Positions 9,501-41,687 of a DNA stretch of 42,086 nucleotides are shown one piece after another. Numbering within the stretch: position 1 is the stretch's first letter; the number at the start of each line of letters is the position of its first letter. The translations under genes and the position numbers were made by a program. The notes below the pieces were generated by a model. The model did no database searches. It was given only the letters and a program-made list of their open reading frames with translations, and had not been told where the DNA came from. This DNA comes from a virus. The stretch covers positions 12,008 to 54,093 of the IMG/VR virus record IMGVR_UViG_3300030202_000401. The stretch is one strand, 5' to 3'.

Positions 9501-12500
9501 ATCCTTTAGAGTTCATTATAGTAACGTTAGACGTATCTAGCTCTGCTTGATTTTGTAAATCCTGCACATTACTTTTTGCTCCTTTAGTAGCACTTCGCAT
9601 ATTAATAACGTGCACTTTACCACCTTCCATAGCGTTGTGCATTTTTCGTAGCTCTGGGAACTCGTTTGCTATTTCGTTTGTAACAATTGTGTATGAATTC
9701 TTATCCATAGACAATGTCATTGTACCATTTCTAAGCGTAAGCTCTTCGTGATAAGGCTTGATAGGATAAATAGACACAGGGTTGCCATTATCATCTACCC
9801 ATCCCAAACCAGCTTTATCATTTGCATAGGCCTGATTGTCTCTTTCGCCCCATTGCCCCATTCCTTGCATTATACCACGGTACATTTCTGTGCTAATAAA
9901 AGACTGCGCATCAGTTTTTTCTAAGCCCGCATTTGCATTAGTATACTTTTCAGATATTGTGTTAGCTACTTCTACGCTGTTACCTGCTGCAATTAAATTG
10001 TCTCGCATTCTATCAGCAACCTGGTTAGCTCTATCTGAATCTATAAAGTTAAAATCTGCTACTGTAATTGCGTTGTAATAAGGCATCATACCATACGTAG
10101 GATCGCCTTTAGCTTCTCCAGCAATTAGTAATTTTTGCCCTGGCGTTGTAACTAGGGCCATACGCTTATAGAAGTCTTTAGTGTCTTTTGTAAATCCAAA
10201 CCCGCCTCTTAACAATTTAGCTGCTTCTATACGCCCAACAAAGTCATTAAAGACAAAGCTTTTTACAAAGTCTTTTCTAGTAGACATGTCTGTATGCACT
10301 TCTTCTCTTAATGTAATGTCAAACTTTTCTATTTGCGCAGTAACATCGTCTTCGTATTTGTTAAGCTTATCTTTAACTTGCTCTACAAGACTGTTAAGTC
10401 TAGCTTCAAAATGCTGACCTGCAGGGCTGATTCTATATCTTTCATTGCCTGATACATATTCTTCCACTTGGCTTGCAAGGCGTTTAAGACCTTCTTTGCT
10501 AGTAGGACTTCCTGGCATATACTCTTCATGCAAGTTTAAACCTTCTAGTTGAGCTCCATCTTCTGTAAAAATAGTGCCGTCTGCGTTAGTAGGAATAGAT
10601 CCTTTTTTATAGTGATAGCCTTCTATAAGTTTTGAGGTATCTCCTGTTAGTCTAGCACGTTTAACCTGTTTATCTGCCTGGTCTAGCCTAGCTAAGTCTT
10701 GTAGTATTAGCCCTTTAATTATATCTTCTTTAGATACTCCTGCTGCTTGTTGGTTATCATACCTAGGCTGGATCATAAAGTCTAGATTTCTACCAGGCAT
10801 TGTAGGTATAGCTATTCTAGTTAGCGATGCATTATTATTATTTGCAAAAGCATTTAGCCTTACAATAAGTGATGACCTAGATGACTGCTCGTCGTAGTCA
10901 CTTATGTTGCCGTTAGCTTCTTTTAAAGAGTCTAAAGATCTTATTCCTTCCTCTTCAAACGCTTCTCTAAAAGTAGGACTATTTAAAAGACGTGTTACTA
11001 AAACAGACTGGTGACGGAAATCAGATCCTGGATTATACAAAGGGTCTTGCAGCATTGTCTGCAGAAGCTCGTTACCTTGCTTAGACTTTATATTTAAAAC
11101 TACCTCGTCTAAAGTTGTTGGTAGGTTTACAGGGTAGTACGATTTGTTTGTACCACTTATAAAAGATCCTATGTACTTACTGTCAAACAGAGGTGCTATA
11201 GAAGCTATCTTGTTTATAGTTGACCCCTCTCTTGTGTAGATGTTTTTATTTTGCCTAGCTACTTCTCGTAAACTTGCCAGCGGTTTCTTTTTACCTCTGT
11301 ACGATGGGTTAATGTAGTTGTTAAATAACAACATTCCATTTGCAGGTCTGCCACCTATAAATCCACCTATCGTAAAATACCTAGTTAAATTAGCTTTTGT
11401 AGTTTCTAAGGTAGGTCCGTACTGCATTCCTAAACTCCATAAGTAATCTCCTAATGCATCTACTGCCTCACTAGGTACTGGGTCATTAGGTCTAAGATTT
11501 GTAGTAGCCCTTTCTAGTCGTTCCCAAGCATTGTCAGCAGCTGCTAGCTTTTCTGGGATTACTTCTAAATTGCCTTCTGCATCTTCTTTGTATAAAGCCC
11601 TAGGATTAGGAGCCTGCCTCTCAATAGAGTTATTGTTGTATCTAGTACGGTAACGACGTGCTGTATCGTTCTCGTTAGGGTTAGACATTTTAGTAGTAAC
11701 CTTTACATTACCCTCTGCATCTATCCCGCGTTCTATTCTAAATAAAAGAAACTGCTTGTAAGCTAGCGCAAAGTTAGAAAATATTGCTGCTTGCTGATTA
11801 GGCTCTAGCCCTCGTAGTCGTTCTACTATAGGAGTAAGTTCTGGTTTGTATTTAGCTCGCTGCTCTAACTCTGCTAGCATAGCTGGAAAGCTTGGCTGCT
11901 CTGCTGTAGCTTGCGCTAATTCTCCATACACCATATCAATAGGCATATCAGTTTGGTAGCCTTGGCCTAATAATTTTTTTAGTATAGAATTTGGATTATC
12001 GTACTTGATTCCTGCAAGAGCGCTTTTAGCTTCAGCTGATAAACGATCTCTAGGGTTTTCTTGCAGTCTTGCTACACTGTATATACGTACAGGAGTCTCG
12101 TCCATTTCTACTAGCATTTCCCCTTCGCTAGTCATCTTCATTCCATGGTTAGCCAAGCGGTCTTGTATTTTATCTCTCCACCCTACAGTTTCAATGTTGC
12201 CTGTAGCTTCATTAACTTGACTGTTCCATCTATCGTAGACGTCAAAAAATACTATCTCTCCTACAGGCGTAAGTGTTACTCCTTCAGGTAAGTTATTTCG
12301 TAGGGCATTAAAGTCTCTACCACTTTCTTTCCAGGTATTGTATAGGTCTACTGCTGTGTTAAGATCTTCTTGAGATCTGCTAAGGCCCTCAAAACTTTCA
12401 CCTAATAGCATTTTTGCAAGTGTGCCGTTATCTATAGGCTTGCCTTTAGCATCTAGACCAGGGTTAAAGAAATCATTTACACTATTAGGGTTTCTAAAAA

Positions 12501-36160: not shown

Positions 36161-36616
36161 TTAGATCACTTTGTATTTAGTTCTACCTTTGTCCTTGTAT
36201 GCTAGTAAGCATCTGTTTCTGTTTTCTTCCTCAGATACATAGCTTATATGTACCCATGCAGGATTACTATCGTCACCAAATTCCCATATAATTTGATCAA
36301 AGTCTAGATTCTCTTTTATGTAGTTATACATCTCTGCATTTGTTTTATGCCCAAATGTATCATCTAGATCTACAGCCTGTCCTTTACAATGCTGTGACCT
36401 AGAACTACCGCCAATAGCCTTATTTAATTCTACTGACCTAAAGAAACTATTAATCTTGATAGGACCACCTACCCAAGATCTTAGAGGCTCAAATACCTTT
36501 TCAGCTAATACTTTCATATTAGCCAATTGCTCATCGTTAGGTATATTATCTATACCTCGACGTATTGCAGTATTACTATGCCTGCCTTCTTTATCGCTTA
36601 TATGCTTACTTATCAT
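36161..36616 (-). CDS. M15-family zinc peptidase, probable endolysin
   Basis: A 151-residue peptidase resembling the M15 D-Ala-D-Ala carboxypeptidase / L-Ala-D-Glu endopeptidase type, cutting peptidoglycan stem peptides. The zinc site is complete: SQHCKGQAVDLD (His76, Asp83) and WVHISY (His123), with Glu112 in WEFGDD as likely catalytic base. The segment KINSFFRSVELNKAIGGS is the usual region before the first motif. The length is that of a single catalytic domain without a cell-wall-binding part, normal for a Gram-negative host. No signal peptide is seen, so release would need the holin. It could also be a virion-borne enzyme for entry, since it sits among fibre and structural genes. Confidence 0.9.
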   Translation of the reverse strand: MISKHISDKEGRHSNTAIRRGIDNIPNDEQLANMKVLAEKVFEPLRSWVGGPIKINSFFRSVELNKAIGGSSRSQHCKGQAVDLDDTFGHKTNAEMYNYIKENLDFDQIIWEFGDDSNPAWVHISYVSEEENRNRCLLAYKDKGRTKYKVI

Positions 36617-36620
36617 CTAC

Positions 36621-36986
36621 TTATGCAGGCTTAGTCCAATATCCATATTCTACTACGCAAGCTGCTGTATCTGCTTGAAGTTCAAATCCTGTATCAGGCC
36701 ATAATGGAAAGAATAAAAATTCTCCTGGATTTAAAACTCCAAAAGTTGTACCGCCTGCAGTTGAAACTTTAACAAAGTTTGTACTATCTGTATTTTTAAT
36801 ATATACATAAGTTCTTAAAGCTTGAGCTGTTGTTAAAATTTCTGTAGGACTACTGTGGCTTATAGAAATTCTAGCTGCGTTAATAGCAGGCTCTTGCGTA
36901 GTTAACACGTCAGATGCACTAAGGTTTAAAGCATCGCTTGTAGCATTAGAACTAGACAATGTTAGTTTTGCTGTTAATGTTGCCAT
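36621..36986 (-). CDS. Small beta-rich phage structural protein
   Basis: A 121-residue Thr/Ala/Ser-rich protein with a likely beta-sandwich layout: TLTAKLTLSSSNATSDALNL, RTYVYIKNTDSTNFVKVST, and FGVLNPGEFLFFPLWPD. This pattern is common in small virion decoration or appendage proteins of marine phages. No membrane segment or catalytic motif is visible. It lies 4 bases before the M15 gene and 11 bases after the T9SS cargo gene. Function unknown; the structural reading comes from pattern and context only. Confidence 0.65.
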   Translation of the reverse strand: MATLTAKLTLSSSNATSDALNLSASDVLTTQEPAINAARISISHSSPTEILTTAQALRTYVYIKNTDSTNFVKVSTAGGTTFGVLNPGEFLFFPLWPDTGFELQADTAACVVEYGYWTKPA

Positions 36987-36997
36987 TTTATTTATTT

Positions 36998-39220
36998 TTA
37001 ATTTTTAACAATCTTGTGATCTATTATAAATTCATTGTATGAAACCCTCACATAATAGATTCCATTTGAATACTTGCTAAGATCTAACATATTTACATTA
37101 GTTACATCTAAGACTTTTTTACCTGAGCTATTATAAACTACGGCATCTACAGTAGAGTTTGCAGCAATATTAACTATGTCAGATGTAGGATTAGGATAAA
37201 AACTTATCTTACCCTCCCTTAAATCGTCTACTGTCAATGGTCCGTCCCAGCCGTCCTCACAGTAGTCATAAAGCGTTGAACATGTAGAATCCCAAGAGTT
37301 GTCACAACAATAAGGATCTACAGATATAACCCACTCAAAGCACCCGTTAGGTAAATAGTATATGTCACCTACTGCGCATCCTGCAGAGTAATAACAAGAC
37401 TCTGTAGCCGTATTGGCTAGTGGATCATAGTTTACTGCCTGCGCGTCCGTGCAGCCCTCCACAATTTCAATGCACGAATCATTGTCAGTGTTAGCATCAG
37501 GGTCATAATTAAAGGCATTAGGATCAGTGCAGCCATATATATAAGGTATGCAACTGCCATTTTCTGTATTCGCTGTCGGGTCATAGTTAAACTGTGTAGG
37601 GTCTGTGCAGCCAAAGATTATTGGAATACACTCTCCCGCATCTGTAGCTGCAGCGTTATAATTAAATGCTGTTGGGTCTTGACATCCTACTACTTCTAAC
37701 TCATCACATACTCCATCGCCGTCATAGTCATTGACACAGCTATTATTACAATCATAGTACTGCACAGGGTAGTTGCACTCTGAACTAGTGTTAGCTTCTG
37801 CGTCGTAGTTACAAGCTGTTTCGTCAGTACATCCATATACATAAGGTATACAGCTATCGCCGCAATAAGGTGTAAAATGGTATACTTTCCACTCTGGCGC
37901 ACTAAACGGCTGTAGAGCTCCTTGGCCATTGTTTAGAAAAGGATTGCTACCCTCAGATAATAAAGTGTCTCCAGCTTGGTTGATAGCATATACAGAGTTG
38001 TGTAATGTCTGAAATGCAAGTTCTTGCGCAGATGACTGCTGGCCTCCATCTTGGAAATAGTATATATCAACCTCTTCGTCTGAGTCAAGTATTATGTCCC
38101 ATGATTCTGAAAATATACCAGGACCTATAGTAAATAACCATTGCTGATCTCCCTGTTTCATGCCAATACCTGACATACCCCAACCATCACCCGCATCGTC
38201 TTCTAAAACAATTTGTATACTGCAAGGGCTAGTGTTGTCTGATATAGTAGCTAAACTATCATAGTTCATAGCTTCAGGGTTTGTACATCCCCAAGTATGT
38301 AGAGTCATACACGTATCCTGTACTGTAGCATCTGGGTTGTAATCTACATAGTCATCATCCATACAACCAACTACATCAGGTGCTGGTGGACAAGGCTCAG
38401 TAAATATAGGTCCAGAGTATTCTGTGGTACCACCAAACTCTGTAAATGCTAAATCTTCTAGCTCCCATATAACGCTATCACAAGCAGTAATAATACAACC
38501 GCCGTCTTGACCTCCGGATGCAGATCCGTTAAGCCCGTCGCCAAACTGATCTATTAACACTAGTTCAAAACCTAATGCTACGCAAAAGTCATACGTGTAA
38601 GTTACTAGCTGGTCACCAAAGTCAAACTCACCAGGTATAACCTGTTCATATAACTGACCATTAGATAAGTTAACTATATTAAAACCTGTTTCGCCAGGCC
38701 ACGTGTCAAGAGTTAACTGCATAGACACTTGCGTCTCAAGAGAATCACATTCTATAATTTCGCAACTACCATCATCTTGGTTAGCCCACGGATTATAGTT
38801 ATCTGCTGCCTCATTCATGCAGCCAGGTAGTACAGGTAGACAGGGCTCTAGCACAAACGGTATTGTATCTATAGCTTCAGCAAACTCATAGTTAAACTCT
38901 TCAAGTCCACACGTGTTTGTTATCCCAAAGAAACCTTGTCCAAATGAACAGCATATGCCATCACCAAATGAATCGTACATAATAAACGCATACTCGCCCG
39001 CAGGTAAGAAAACCATTATGTTAGTTAGCGTGTTGTTTGCAAGTGGTGGACTTACTGCTACTGTATTGCTATCAGAATTAATTATTTCCCATGATGATTC
39101 ACCACCATAGTTATCTGTCTGCACGGTAACATTTAACCAACTAGCATCATCAGGCTGCGCAACTGCACAACTAGCTACTAGCCAAAATATTACTACAAGT
39201 ATGTATCCTAACTTTTTCAT
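36998..39220 (-). CDS. Exported multidomain protein with T9SS C-terminal sorting domain
   Basis: A 740-residue phage-encoded secreted protein. Residues 1-21 form a Sec signal peptide (KKLGYILVVIFWLVASCAVA, then Q). Three related beta modules carry GDG motifs (DSFGDG 83-88, DQFGDG 224-229, DDAGDG 341-346). Cys-rich repeats of the type GCTDPxAxNYDPxANxxxxSC begin at Cys134, 286, 312, 464, 513, 538, 564 and 590, and a calcium-type YDGDGVCDE lies at 499-507. The last 70 residues (FYPNPTSDIVNI, then NSSGKKVLDV, YSNGIYYVRV and a Lys-rich end) are a type A sorting domain for the Bacteroidota type IX secretion system. The product should therefore be displayed on, or released from, the host surface. 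Such proteins are ordinary in Flavobacteriia but unusual in a phage operon, so host origin is likely. Role unknown. Confidence 0.88.
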   Translation of the reverse strand: MKKLGYILVVIFWLVASCAVAQPDDASWLNVTVQTDNYGGESSWEIINSDSNTVAVSPPLANNTLTNIMVFLPAGEYAFIMYDSFGDGICCSFGQGFFGITNTCGLEEFNYEFAEAIDTIPFVLEPCLPVLPGCMNEAADNYNPWANQDDGSCEIIECDSLETQVSMQLTLDTWPGETGFNIVNLSNGQLYEQVIPGEFDFGDQLVTYTYDFCVALGFELVLIDQFGDGLNGSASGGQDGGCIITACDSVIWELEDLAFTEFGGTTEYSGPIFTEPCPPAPDVVGCMDDDYVDYNPDATVQDTCMTLHTWGCTNPEAMNYDSLATISDNTSPCSIQIVLEDDAGDGWGMSGIGMKQGDQQWLFTIGPGIFSESWDIILDSDEEVDIYYFQDGGQQSSAQELAFQTLHNSVYAINQAGDTLLSEGSNPFLNNGQGALQPFSAPEWKVYHFTPYCGDSCIPYVYGCTDETACNYDAEANTSSECNYPVQYYDCNNSCVNDYDGDGVCDELEVVGCQDPTAFNYNAAATDAGECIPIIFGCTDPTQFNYDPTANTENGSCIPYIYGCTDPNAFNYDPDANTDNDSCIEIVEGCTDAQAVNYDPLANTATESCYYSAGCAVGDIYYLPNGCFEWVISVDPYCCDNSWDSTCSTLYDYCEDGWDGPLTVDDLREGKISFYPNPTSDIVNIAANSTVDAVVYNSSGKKVLDVTNVNMLDLSKYSNGIYYVRVSYNEFIIDHKIVKN
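37385..37837 (-). repeat. Tandem GCTDPxAxNYDPxAN protein repeats
   Basis: Five near-contiguous copies of a roughly 25-residue Cys/Asn/Asp-rich unit (about 75-80 bases each) lie within residues 462-612 of the T9SS cargo. The central three copies (starting Cys538, Cys564, Cys590) are the most alike, suggesting recent duplication. The unit has paired cysteines and Asp/Asn ladders, so disulfide and calcium stabilisation on the cell surface is plausible. Related but more diverged copies lie further N-terminal. Confidence 0.8.
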
Positions 39221-39589
39221 TTAAAAATCGCTATAAATTATCTCATCAATTACTCCTTGCACATCTTTACGTGTAGCTTCCATCTGCATCATTATGTTAG
39301 CTTGAAATCTTTCAACTTCTTTGCCATTAAATACTACAATAGTAGGTACTACTACAATATTGTAATCTGCTTGATAGGTGCCTTCGTCAATGCTAACACT
39401 CATAACCTCACAGTCTGTAAGCTTACCTAAGTAATCCACACTGTTGGTTTCGTTCCAACTAGCATTAAACTGTACTACACATATGTCGCTGCCGCAAAGA
39501 TTTTGACCTATAGCTGTTCCGCTTATAAACATAAATAGCATAACCAGCAAATATGTTAGCACTGTTCCAAAGTTCATTGAGTCTTCCAT
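39221..39589 (-). CDS. Exported thioredoxin-fold protein lacking the CxxC site
   Basis: A 122-residue protein with an N-terminal hydrophobic segment (residues 7-25, TVLTYLLVMLFMFISGT) followed by AIGQ, which could be a signal peptide or an anchor. The mature part follows the thioredoxin layout: strand CVVQFNASWNE (37-47), an acidic strand MSVSIDEG (63-70), cis-Pro turn VVVPTIVVFNGKEVERFQAN (80-98) and a final helix. Where thioredoxins have WCxxC, this has WNET (45-48), so classical redox chemistry is not expected. Cys32 and Cys37 lie just before. ATG 39589 is chosen because the frame's earlier ATG (39607) lies inside the upstream gene. It stands directly before the T9SS cargo (TAAATG), so it may help fold or hold that Cys-rich protein; this is inference. 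Confidence 0.7.
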   Translation of the reverse strand: MEDSMNFGTVLTYLLVMLFMFISGTAIGQNLCGSDICVVQFNASWNETNSVDYLGKLTDCEVMSVSIDEGTYQADYNIVVVPTIVVFNGKEVERFQANIMMQMEATRKDVQGVIDEIIYSDF

Positions 39590-39590
39590 T

Positions 39591-39809
39591 TTACTTTTTA
39601 TTAGCAAACTTTTCTACACCGCTAATTCCAAACGACCCCAAAACTACCCACACAAAAGAGTTGTATACAAATTCGTTAATTACTAAATCATTACCTACGG
39701 CTCCAGATACAGTATCCACAAGCATCACTACCACCATTATGGCAAATGCTACAAAGCCAACTATTGCTTTTTCGTTCCATTCGTTATTGTCTTTAAATAT
39801 TTCAAACAT
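39591..39809 (-). CDS. Small two-helix membrane protein
   Basis: A 72-residue protein with two hydrophobic helices, about 15-37 (AIVGFVAFAIMVVVMLVDTV) and 47-63 (VYNSFVWVVLGSFGISG), joined by a short polar loop, and a charged N terminus. Size and shape fit a small holin or holin-like protein, but no family motif decides this. It begins 4 bases after the upstream coiled-coil membrane protein and ends just before the thioredoxin-like gene. With the 3-TM holin at 33758-34159 it would be a second candidate membrane-permeabilising protein, or an antiholin. Confidence 0.65.
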   Translation of the reverse strand: MFEIFKDNNEWNEKAIVGFVAFAIMVVVMLVDTVSGAVGNDLVINEFVYNSFVWVVLGSFGISGVEKFANKK

Positions 39810-39813
39810 GTTA

Positions 39814-40095
39814 TTACAGATTATCTATTTTTTCTTCGATACGTTTCATATCGTCCTTAATCTCAGTCACATCTTCCTGAGTAGTCATAATAGTTTGACG
39901 GATCAATTGATCTTTCATATCAAACTCCATACGAGTAACTTCTGAAGGTAGTGGTTCGGGTAGCTCTTTTGCTTCCGCTATATCCGCTTGTAGTGTAAAC
40001 CACATGCCTATAAGGGCAGCTAATCCTGCTACACCCATACCTATTGTTTTGAGGTCAAATGTTACTTTAGTATCCTCGCCTATTTGCTTAGCCAT
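39814..40095 (-). CDS. Single-TM coiled-coil protein, possible inner-membrane spanin
   Basis: A 93-residue protein with a short N-terminal tail, one membrane helix (about 17-35, TIGMGVAGLAALIGMWFTLQ) and a charged coiled coil (about 56-93, MEFDMKDQLIRQ through KRIEEKIDN). This topology is that of inner-membrane spanins and of several small phage membrane proteins. No lipoprotein partner (outer-membrane spanin) was found within or beside it, so the lysis role is tentative. The start overlaps the stop of the 57-residue gene as TAATG. Confidence 0.65.
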   Translation of the reverse strand: MAKQIGEDTKVTFDLKTIGMGVAGLAALIGMWFTLQADIAEAKELPEPLPSEVTRMEFDMKDQLIRQTIMTTQEDVTEIKDDMKRIEEKIDNL

Positions 40096-40268
40096 TATAC
40101 TTCAAATCCAAAGTTTAATATCATAAATCTAAATTTTTTCTTCTCGCACTCTGACGGGCAGAATAGGCAAGCTTTCACTTGAAAGATTGTTATAGTACCT
40201 AGTCTAAATGACACTTCGTACTTTTCCTTTTTGTTACCAGCTTTCCAGCTATTTATCCAATTAATCAT
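40095..40268 (-). CDS. 57-residue Cys-rich protein
   Basis: A small gene in the only space between the nuclease and spanin-like genes. It starts at ATG 40268, overlapping the nuclease stop as ATGA, and stops at TAA overlapping the next ATG as TAATG, so both ends are tightly coupled. The product begins MINWINSWKAG, has a beta-like VSFRLGTITIFQVKA, then CLFCPSEC (Cys34, 37, 41) and a basic/aromatic end KKKFRFMILNFGFEV. The CxxCxxxC set could bind zinc or an iron-sulfur centre. No family recognised. Confidence 0.7.
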   Translation of the reverse strand: MINWINSWKAGNKKEKYEVSFRLGTITIFQVKACLFCPSECEKKKFRFMILNFGFEV

Positions 40269-40642
40269 GATTTCTTTCTTTTACCGCCATGGTATTCAAC
40301 CGCATGGCCTTCTGTTATTAAAAGTTTATTAAGAGACACCATAGTAAAGCTATCAGAGCTATCTACTGTATCTACATAAATTTCACCTAGAACCCTTCCG
40401 TACTTTCCAATCTCTTTTGATTCTAAAGTAAAAGTATCGTTCTCGTCAAGAATAGATTGTACCCTAGCCTTTGCAGCTAAGCCTCTTTCTTTCTCTTCAA
40501 GATCCCTAGTCCTAGACTCAGGAGTGTTTATTCCTGCAAACCTAACTCGTTTGTTAACACTTATGTCAAACCCAAGGTCTATGTTGACATCAATTGTGTC
40601 ACCATCTATTACTCGATCTAATGTTGCTTTATAAGTATACAT
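40265..40642 (-). CDS. Staphylococcal nuclease-like (SNase) thermonuclease
   Basis: A 125-residue nuclease with the SNase OB-fold. Visible are ATLDRVIDGDTIDVNIDLGF (calcium-site Asp residues), VRFAGINTPESR (Arg34 and Glu42, matching Arg35 and Glu43 of the Staphylococcus enzyme), ERGLAAKARV, and KYGRVLGEIYV (Arg83, matching Arg87). All catalytic residues are therefore present, and hydrolysis of DNA or RNA with calcium is expected. No signal peptide is visible, so it would act in the cytoplasm or after lysis. The C terminus is basic (GGKRKKS). It is one base after the outer-membrane protein gene. Possible jobs are host DNA breakdown, nucleotide recycling or attack on competing DNA; the sequence does not decide. 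Confidence 0.92.
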   Translation of the reverse strand: MYTYKATLDRVIDGDTIDVNIDLGFDISVNKRVRFAGINTPESRTRDLEEKERGLAAKARVQSILDENDTFTLESKEIGKYGRVLGEIYVDTVDSSDSFTMVSLNKLLITEGHAVEYHGGKRKKS

Positions 40643-40643
40643 G

Positions 40644-41687
40644 TTAAAATATTACGTAGTTAGCTCCAACAGTAAAGTCATGCCACTCTCTGTTCCAGTA
40701 TTTGTTGTATTTCCCCTCTAAAAATACACCTAAATTTTTATTAAGTCTCCACCCAAAAATAAGCCCTGCGCCGTAGTCAAGCCATTGTTCACCTTCAGTA
40801 GTCTCAAAGTATGAATACTCACCTCCAGTATTAAGGTGATATGGTATTACGCTTACCCAATTGTGAAACCAAAAGTCATCCGTAAAATGATAGTAGTCAT
40901 ACCCTACAACTGCAGAGTAGTTCCATTGATCTGGCAGCTCGCTTCTTTTTCTTGCTACGTAATCATCTATAACTTCTGGTATTACTACCTCTGTCCAAAC
41001 ATCTGAACTTTGCGCACACAACTCACCGTTTGGGTCATAGTACTCACTAGCCTGCACATCTACAGAATATCCTTCCTGTATTGCTAGCTGTGTGTAATGT
41101 ATATTATTATTATCTAGTAGCCATTCTGCTAGTGGGTCATAGCCATACGGCTCTGATATACGCTGTACTAAACCAATGTTAAAACTAAATTTATCGTTTA
41201 CATTTAATCTAAATCTTTCAGACCCCTCAAAGTATCTAACATCCGCAAAACCATCTTGCAAGTACTCAGCTTTAGCAATCCAGTTTTGAGCTACGTAACG
41301 CAAGAAGTAGTCTTGGTCTAAAAAGTTTCTGCCCTGCTGTCTACGCCAATCAGCCTCAAATAAAAACTCAAAACCTTTTACTTTACCTATGGTAGCGGCA
41401 TCACTGTAAGATCGCTCTGTTCCGTTGTAGAACGTATTAGCTCTGTTCTCATATCCAAACCTAGCAATCTTACGCACTCCTACAGTAAACGAGTAATCAA
41501 ACGGAGTTTCTACAATATCTGTCTGCAGTCCGTTTGTTACAGAGTAAAGATTGTCGTCAGCTATAGAATTACCACCGCTAAAAGCTGCATAAAAAGTAGA
41601 AAACTTAAATGCCTTTTTTAGCGTTTGCGCTTCTACTGTAAACACACAGCAAAAAATACTTAGTATTATTAAAATTATTTTTCTCAT
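40644..41687 (-). CDS. Outer-membrane beta-barrel protein encoded by the phage
   Basis: A 347-residue exported protein. Residues 1-20 are a signal peptide (RKIILIILSIFCCVFTVEA, then Q). The mature part is rich in alternating aromatic and polar strands (for example GFEFLFEADWRRQQGRNF, WNYSAVVGYDYYHFTDDFWF and WLDYGAGLIFGWRLNKNL) and ends in NYVIF, a C-terminal aromatic typical of outer-membrane barrels. Two cysteines lie in the signal peptide and one in a predicted loop. It has no plug domain, so it is not a TonB receptor. A barrel made during infection could alter permeability, block phage receptors or aid lysis; I cannot tell which. Its ATG overlaps the upstream stop as TAATG. Confidence 0.78.
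   Translation of the reverse strand: MRKIILIILSIFCCVFTVEAQTLKKAFKFSTFYAAFSGGNSIADDNLYSVTNGLQTDIVETPFDYSFTVGVRKIARFGYENRANTFYNGTERSYSDAATIGKVKGFEFLFEADWRRQQGRNFLDQDYFLRYVAQNWIAKAEYLQDGFADVRYFEGSERFRLNVNDKFSFNIGLVQRISEPYGYDPLAEWLLDNNNIHYTQLAIQEGYSVDVQASEYYDPNGELCAQSSDVWTEVVIPEVIDDYVARKRSELPDQWNYSAVVGYDYYHFTDDFWFHNWVSVIPYHLNTGGEYSYFETTEGEQWLDYGAGLIFGWRLNKNLGVFLEGKYNKYWNREWHDFTVGANYVIF

Follow-up and report, generated by a model that had tools for sequence, protein, structure and literature searches.

Viruses of Bacteroidota appear to share a gene cassette that pairs a T9SS-tagged protein with a predicted outer-membrane barrel

Phage proteins addressed to the type IX secretion system (T9SS) of the host are already known. 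Cryophage has three variable T9SS type A cargo genes, for which a role in superinfection exclusion was suggested (Bellas et al. 2020, PMC7468147). A second report describes T9SS-tagged ORFs in BACON-phage cluster 2 (de Jonge et al. 2019, PMC6949934). A sequence-only reading of the gene studied here pointed to no described function for such a gene in crAss-like phages; phage T9SS cargo as such is covered by these two reports. Type A cargo is normally taken by PorV to the attachment complex and type B cargo by a PorP/SprF barrel (PMC11205867), so a phage-encoded barrel beside a type A cargo gene is unusual. Phage action on the envelope of the infected cell is exemplified by the superinfection-exclusion lipoprotein Llp of T5, which sits in the outer envelope of the host and prevents adsorption to cells already infected and to debris; exclusion proteins are often early (PMC9586334). 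Phages of Porphyromonas gingivalis encode proteins with Q-rule signal peptides, which suit Bacteroidota export; these proteins are presumed to alter the surface of the host, but the T9SS goes unmentioned in that report (0 occurrences in the text; PMC10367356).

We analyzed a stretch of 42,086 bases (the window), which comprises bases 12008-54093 of a 59,895-base IMG/VR virus record, and a T9SS type A cargo gene within it. Judged by its sequence and that of its relatives, the gene is a member of a conserved four-gene cassette that encodes the cargo, a predicted outer-membrane barrel, a protein with a transmembrane (TM) and a charged helix, and a putatively exported thioredoxin-fold protein. The view of a single T9SS cargo gene is therefore right as to the type A cargo and too narrow as to the locus, which has a barrel of its own. 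As in Cryophage, the proteins are phage-encoded, end in type A sorting domains, and presumably travel through the host T9SS, and the cargo genes vary between phage variants (PMC7468147). However, the Cryophage cargo proteins, all from a single phage, are an endoglucanase, a GH39, and a PA14 protein; none of these domains is present in the cargo studied here, which belongs to a fixed cassette that links it to a barrel in many phages. BACON phages likewise show T9SS sorting domains in Bacteroidetes phages, near head genes, whereas the present cargo has no BACON match, and no barrel or cassette is described in the accessible part of that article (PMC6949934). Type B cargo with PorP/SprF also pairs a T9SS substrate with an outer-membrane beta-barrel (PMC11205867), but here the tag is type A and the barrel has no PorP_SprF profile match. 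A literature search found no study of such a cassette. Within the literature searched, what is new is thus not phage T9SS cargo but its fixed association with a barrel and helpers and the exchange of its heads. Earlier reports of phage use of the T9SS concerned scattered, variable genes; here a fixed cassette is under purifying selection in scores of viral contigs.

The cargo gene and its parts are as follows.
36998..39220, (-) strand: T9SS type A cargo gene, a single unbroken ORF with an ATG start, 740 aa (profiles, relatives, dN/dS)
39158..39220, (-) strand: SPI-type signal peptide (residues 1-21) that obeys the Bacteroidetes Q-rule through Gln at +1 (sequence and hydropathy scan)
37931..39154, (-) strand: swappable head of beta-rich domains D1-D3 (residues 23-127, 159-283, and 335-430)
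37385..37840, (-) strand: Cys-rich repeat array, residues 461-612, units GC(T/Q)D..A.NY....A.......C
37241..37384, (-) strand: conserved Cys-rich cap, residues 613-660, ..DPYCC...WD..C....YC
37001..37198, (-) strand: T9SS type A C-terminal sorting domain, residues 675-740, YPNP...KIVK

Two profiles identified the sorting domain: PF18962 matched residues 675-740 with 38.7 bits (E 1.2e-9; Pfam cut-off 27), and TIGR04183 gave 38.9 bits (E 6.3e-10; NCBIfam cut-off 23), which places the tail above the cut-off in the TIGR04183/Por_Secre_tail search that the sequence-only reading had proposed. A profile built from the cargo relatives matched solved T9SS tails in the PDB, among them the endonuclease I tail of 8glk (E 1.2e-6) and gingipain R tails. 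In an AlphaFold2 model the tail forms a confident C-terminal beta-sandwich (pLDDT about 78-89). Foldseek superimposed this prediction on the NucA CTD in a solved T9SS complex (8glk_D) at 2.1 A, with a TM-score of 0.81 by target length and probability 1.0, and the seven-strand beta-sandwich of a CTD was recovered with both 8glk_D and 7pq4. TIGR04183 was matched individually by 46 of 49 cargo relatives, with the tag always at the extreme C terminus.

The N terminus carries an export signal that follows the Q-rule for Bacteroidetes signal peptides (PMC5837995). Its hydrophobic core scores 3.5 on the KD scale, and the predicted cleavage site falls between MKKLGYILVVIFWLVASCAVA and QPDD, that is, after AVA, with Gln at +1. 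Signal peptides were called by hydropathy and cleavage-motif scan only; this simple scan finds a Q-rule signal peptide in 76 of the 77 barrel relatives and in 57 or more of the 73 cargo relatives. Among the misses listed, most stem from an over-long choice of start or from a truncated ORF. The lipobox expected of an Llp-like lipoprotein does not hold up in the family: the candidate Cys18 is missing in several relatives, and Gln at +1 is kept. After the signal peptide the cargo contains 37 Cys and six GC(T/M/Q)...A.NY....C repeat units. Thus the signal peptide (by scan), the Cys-rich repeats and the type A sorting domain (by both profiles) do occur together in one phage gene, as had been read from the letters. 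Each of D1, D2, and D3 has a D..GDG motif, with Cys repeats between the domains, and the Cys cap is the most conserved region of the cargo (all-pairs identity 0.70). Pfam revealed no enzyme or carbohydrate-binding domain, and a structure search with the whole cargo returned, besides the tail, only low-probability, large-rmsd matches for the head. Profile, fold, signal peptide, and conservation together support the assignment of ORF 36998-39220 as a phage-encoded T9SS type A cargo. The protein is very probably exported via the T9SS of the host, and we infer that this host has a working T9SS.

The genes around the cargo gene are as follows.
36161..36616, (-) strand: M15 peptidase, endolysin-like, downstream neighbor (PF08291, phrog_894)
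36621..36986, (-) strand: 121-aa protein of a family repeated beside the cassette in many relatives (44 loci)
39221..39589, (-) strand: thioredoxin-fold protein that lacks CxxC and is putatively exported (hydrophobic N terminus), directly adjoining the start codon of the cargo gene
39591..39809, (-) strand: 72-aa hydrophobic membrane protein, holin-like by eye (sequence)
39814..40095, (-) strand: 93-aa conserved cassette protein with one TM helix followed by a charged helix (sequence)
40095..40268, (-) strand: 57-aa Cys-containing small protein, a frequent cassette member (31 loci)
40265..40642, (-) strand: staphylococcal-nuclease-like protein, an occasional neighbor and not core (PF00565, phrog_452; 3 loci)
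40644..41687, (-) strand: predicted outer-membrane beta-barrel, 347 aa, core cassette member, with a signal peptide ending in VEA before Gln and a C-terminal Phe

Within the window, neighboring cassette genes either touch or share a few bases and are therefore probably one operon. A profile of the thioredoxin-like family matched 53 PDB sequences, of which almost all bear the name thioredoxin (the best at E 1.7e-4). In the family alignment FNASWN or FNASFN replaces WCGPC, so conventional redox activity is not expected of the protein. Two further Cys of the family are conserved, at 92 and 97%. The 93-aa protein was found in 74 loci at 67-99% identity and has weak PHROG matches to families of unknown function. 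The 72-aa protein has no significant PHROG match, and the small membrane proteins matched holin and spanin PHROGs only at E 0.1-0.4. Members of the 120-140-aa family (window 36621-36986; L003, L007, and L008) often stand as tandem copies beside the cassette.

The AF2 model of the barrel has about 12-14 long alternating strands (pLDDT 72), and its best structural matches are outer-membrane barrels (EstA, Z 12.7; KdgM, OmpG, Tsx, NanC, and CymA). A FadL entry, at Z 9.2, ranks lower among many barrels, with no convincing NCBIfam match. Because many outer-membrane barrels score at similar Z, we claim no specific family. PorV and SprF are not among the listed structural matches, an absence that is uninformative. 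No PorP/SprF match was found with PF11751 at E 1 in 18 cassette records, where the PF11751 control itself matched only below the cut-off, or at E 0.1 in an hmmscan of 35 barrel members. Comparison with PDB sequences and Pfam gave nothing convincing, and SH3_5 and other weak matches were judged to be chance. The modeled fold points to a new outer-membrane beta-barrel.

The extent of the cassette was assessed from a barrel scan that found 450 related viral stretches, 80 of which were kept for analysis, a few contigs being fetched twice. A tagged cargo lies in the locus of 85 of 90 barrels (within 400 bp in 79), and the 5 without cargo are near contig ends. Conversely, all 84 tag-bearing ORFs in the fetched loci are cargo relatives. 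Four cargo matches have no tag: contig ends truncate three of them, and the remaining one, own_47, is a different protein that shares only the repeats. The usual gene order is cargo, (57-aa protein), barrel, 93-aa protein, thioredoxin-like protein; in the window, L008, L009, and L088 the barrel comes first and the cargo last. Linkage of cargo and barrel in two different gene orders suggests that the linkage is selected. Each of 17 other cassette records, like the record of the window, has one and only one TIGR04183 match, whereas MW202828 and NC_055854, two annotated relatives of the L003 terminase, have none. Many viruses of Bacteroidota thus appear, from these comparisons, to carry a cassette with a T9SS-tagged protein and an outer-membrane barrel.

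Outside these contigs the picture differs by gene part. A survey of phage genomes for T9SS tails, which had been suggested from the sequence alone, gave a divided answer: the cargo and barrel, like the thioredoxin-like protein, had no tblastn match in 50,697 phage records, whereas the cargo tail alone had three weak matches, two in records of >600 kb and unannotated where read. The tail alignment is too variable for a scan of the collection. Possible T9SS-like tails, both unannotated and at E about 5e-3, lie at L110:3501-3710 (a 642-kb uncultured phage) and L111:1944-2150 (a faecal phage scaffold).

The cargo gene evolves under constraint, with dN/dS about 0.08 for the whole gene (33 pairs), 0.05 for the repeats, and a median of 0.31 for the tail, which indicates that cargo and tag are kept under purifying selection. 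The heads behave differently. Barrels 96-97% identical occur with D1 domains only 13% identical; in L018 and L022, for instance, the barrel is 96% and the Cys cap 98% identical, but D1 is 13% identical. In comparisons of the window with L008 and L009, identity is 87-94% for D1 and D2 but only 60% for the barrels. Across phages, the identity of the heads shows no relation to that of the barrel (rho 0.00 to 0.11). Thus the N-terminal heads are exchanged between phages, whereas barrel and tail are retained; such exchange would be expected if the heads bind a target. Tail and cap identity follow the barrel over all loci (rho 0.73-0.78). We considered this covariation as proof of contact between cargo and barrel and rejected it: in the window the cargo and barrel genes are separated, and there the relation of tail to barrel is lost, so gene linkage explains the covariation, which does not support physical pairing.

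GCTD repeats also occur in large untagged ORFs (886-2316 aa) of G005, G008, G011, and G014. An untagged 434-aa ORF on the window scaffold, beyond the right-hand N gap (L017:4586-5890), has two GCTDP..NY..DDGSC-type repeats. The untagged ORFs are possible virion adhesins. If they are, cargo and virion may share a ligand, which would favor masking of a receptor by the cargo.

We propose that the cassette is a late surface-display module that makes the dying cell and the debris it leaves poorer targets for adsorption, a reading that we favor with less than even confidence as a whole. Three of the products (cargo, barrel, and thioredoxin-like protein) begin with an export signal, followed in the first two by the Bacteroidota-specific Gln at +1. 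The host translocon should recognize the type A tag at the cargo end and pass the cargo through the outer membrane, into which the barrel seems built for insertion. The thioredoxin-like and TM proteins might assist the folding or transport of the Cys-rich cargo, or link the periplasm with the membrane. The cargo would be anchored on the cell or shed nearby, and its exchangeable heads would bind a surface structure that serves this phage or its rivals as receptor. Infected cells and debris would then no longer adsorb virions, and progeny would not be wasted. The proposal builds on the established export signals, tag, fold, gene linkage, selection, and head exchange; to these it adds host T9SS export, late timing, surface retention, and a role, all of which we infer. 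The L003 cassette lies between a portal and a virion structural (capsid-type) gene, so late expression is likely. This late-type neighborhood also counts against the favored reading, given the early timing of many exclusion proteins. T5 Llp offers a precedent by analogy for the role proposed for the cargo, not for its mechanism: Llp is a small periplasmic lipoprotein acting on FhuA, whereas the cargo is large, SPI-type, T9SS-tagged, and multidomain (PMC9586334). The broader idea of a widespread surface-remodeling system, in which a dedicated phage barrel and periplasmic helpers deliver and hold a T9SS-exported protein with exchanged heads resembling receptor-binding tips, so that competition among viruses of Bacteroidota would be fought by altering the infected cell through the host T9SS, strikes us as rather unlikely. 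With its named barrel and helpers, the cassette makes it possible to test the idea that Bacteroidota phages govern the outer surface of the cells they infect.

Late position and the small membrane proteins would also suit a part in lysis, in which the cassette and the neighboring endolysin break or detach the outer membrane and replace spanins, none of which was seen. The M15 gene adjoins the cassette in the window, L008, L009, and L088. However, the cassette stands without an adjoining M15 gene in most relatives (M15 was present in 3 fetched loci), the TM protein has no lysis-family match above noise, and exchanged, target-like heads would be odd in a lysis component; we consider this explanation improbable. 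Quite improbable, too, is that the cargo binds glycans, particles, or neighboring cells while the barrel admits a solute, so that the infected cell feeds or clusters and progeny meet new hosts. The barrel fold does rank with substrate-specific channels (KdgM, NanC, OmpG, CymA), and the Cys repeats and GDG domains look adhesive, but rank among barrels is not function, the cargo lacks any Pfam enzyme or carbohydrate-binding domain, and a lytic cycle leaves little time for feeding.

The single conserved type A tag per genome could mean that the cargo occupies the T9SS or its attachment machinery, leaving host surface proteins, including phage receptors, undelivered, with the head being secondary. 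We think this very unlikely, since the elaborate exchanged heads would be needless and the tail is less constrained than the repeats. Phages borrow Ig-like folds, and related repeats occur in the large untagged ORFs, so the tail might be such a fold in a fiber or decoration assembled in the cytoplasm; the conserved Q-rule signal peptides, the strictly C-terminal tag that matches sorting-domain profiles, and the constant partnership with an exported barrel make a virion protein highly improbable.

Least tenable is an origin of the cargo gene in host DNA or a false assembly join, which T9SS tags typical of Bacteroidota genes and a scaffolded record with two 10-N gaps might suggest but which the recurrent context excludes. 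The full record joins three contigs, and its 10-N runs (G000 11998-12007 and 54094-54103) fall exactly at the window ends (1 and 42086), not at the cargo gene; only the outer parts of the record are scaffold-linked. The cargo gene lies inside the gap-free contig of 42,086 bases, its neighbors include virion structural families, a nuclease, and the M15 endolysin-like gene, and the same operon recurs in other viral contigs, which together argue against contamination. Cargo relatives 67-84% identical are present in 13 other viral contigs, and the join or contamination that had been named as a possible refutation was thus not found. The scan of bacterial genomes matched one contig, by the tail alone, and the barrel had only one weak, 65-residue match in 395 genomes (the class of one Bacteroidetes MAG). 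In a comparison of flanks, the cassette partners were shared while other genes of the contigs were mostly unlike the window genome.

The crAss-like affiliation suggested by the sequence-only reading is tentative: a structural protein of the window genome is ~24% identical to those of Flavobacterium Fpv phages, with one crAssphage record in the tally, and the window record is in all likelihood incomplete. All 18 other records searched contain a terminase from a single PHROG family, though only marginally in a 165-kb record that has a clear Terminase_6N gene instead. The window record has no terminase of that family, because it is partial or divergent.

Several other features of the scaffold stand apart from the cassette. 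Window 2105-29533 holds six consecutive giant ORFs (859-2133 aa), three of them without any PHROG match. In the left part of the scaffold, an ORF at L016:2421-3275 has a GCLYNCSYCYM motif and resembles radical-SAM photoproduct lyases by eye, and L016:7503-10229 and L016:10324-11496 are RIIA- and RIIB-like genes (PHROG lysis inhibitor families).
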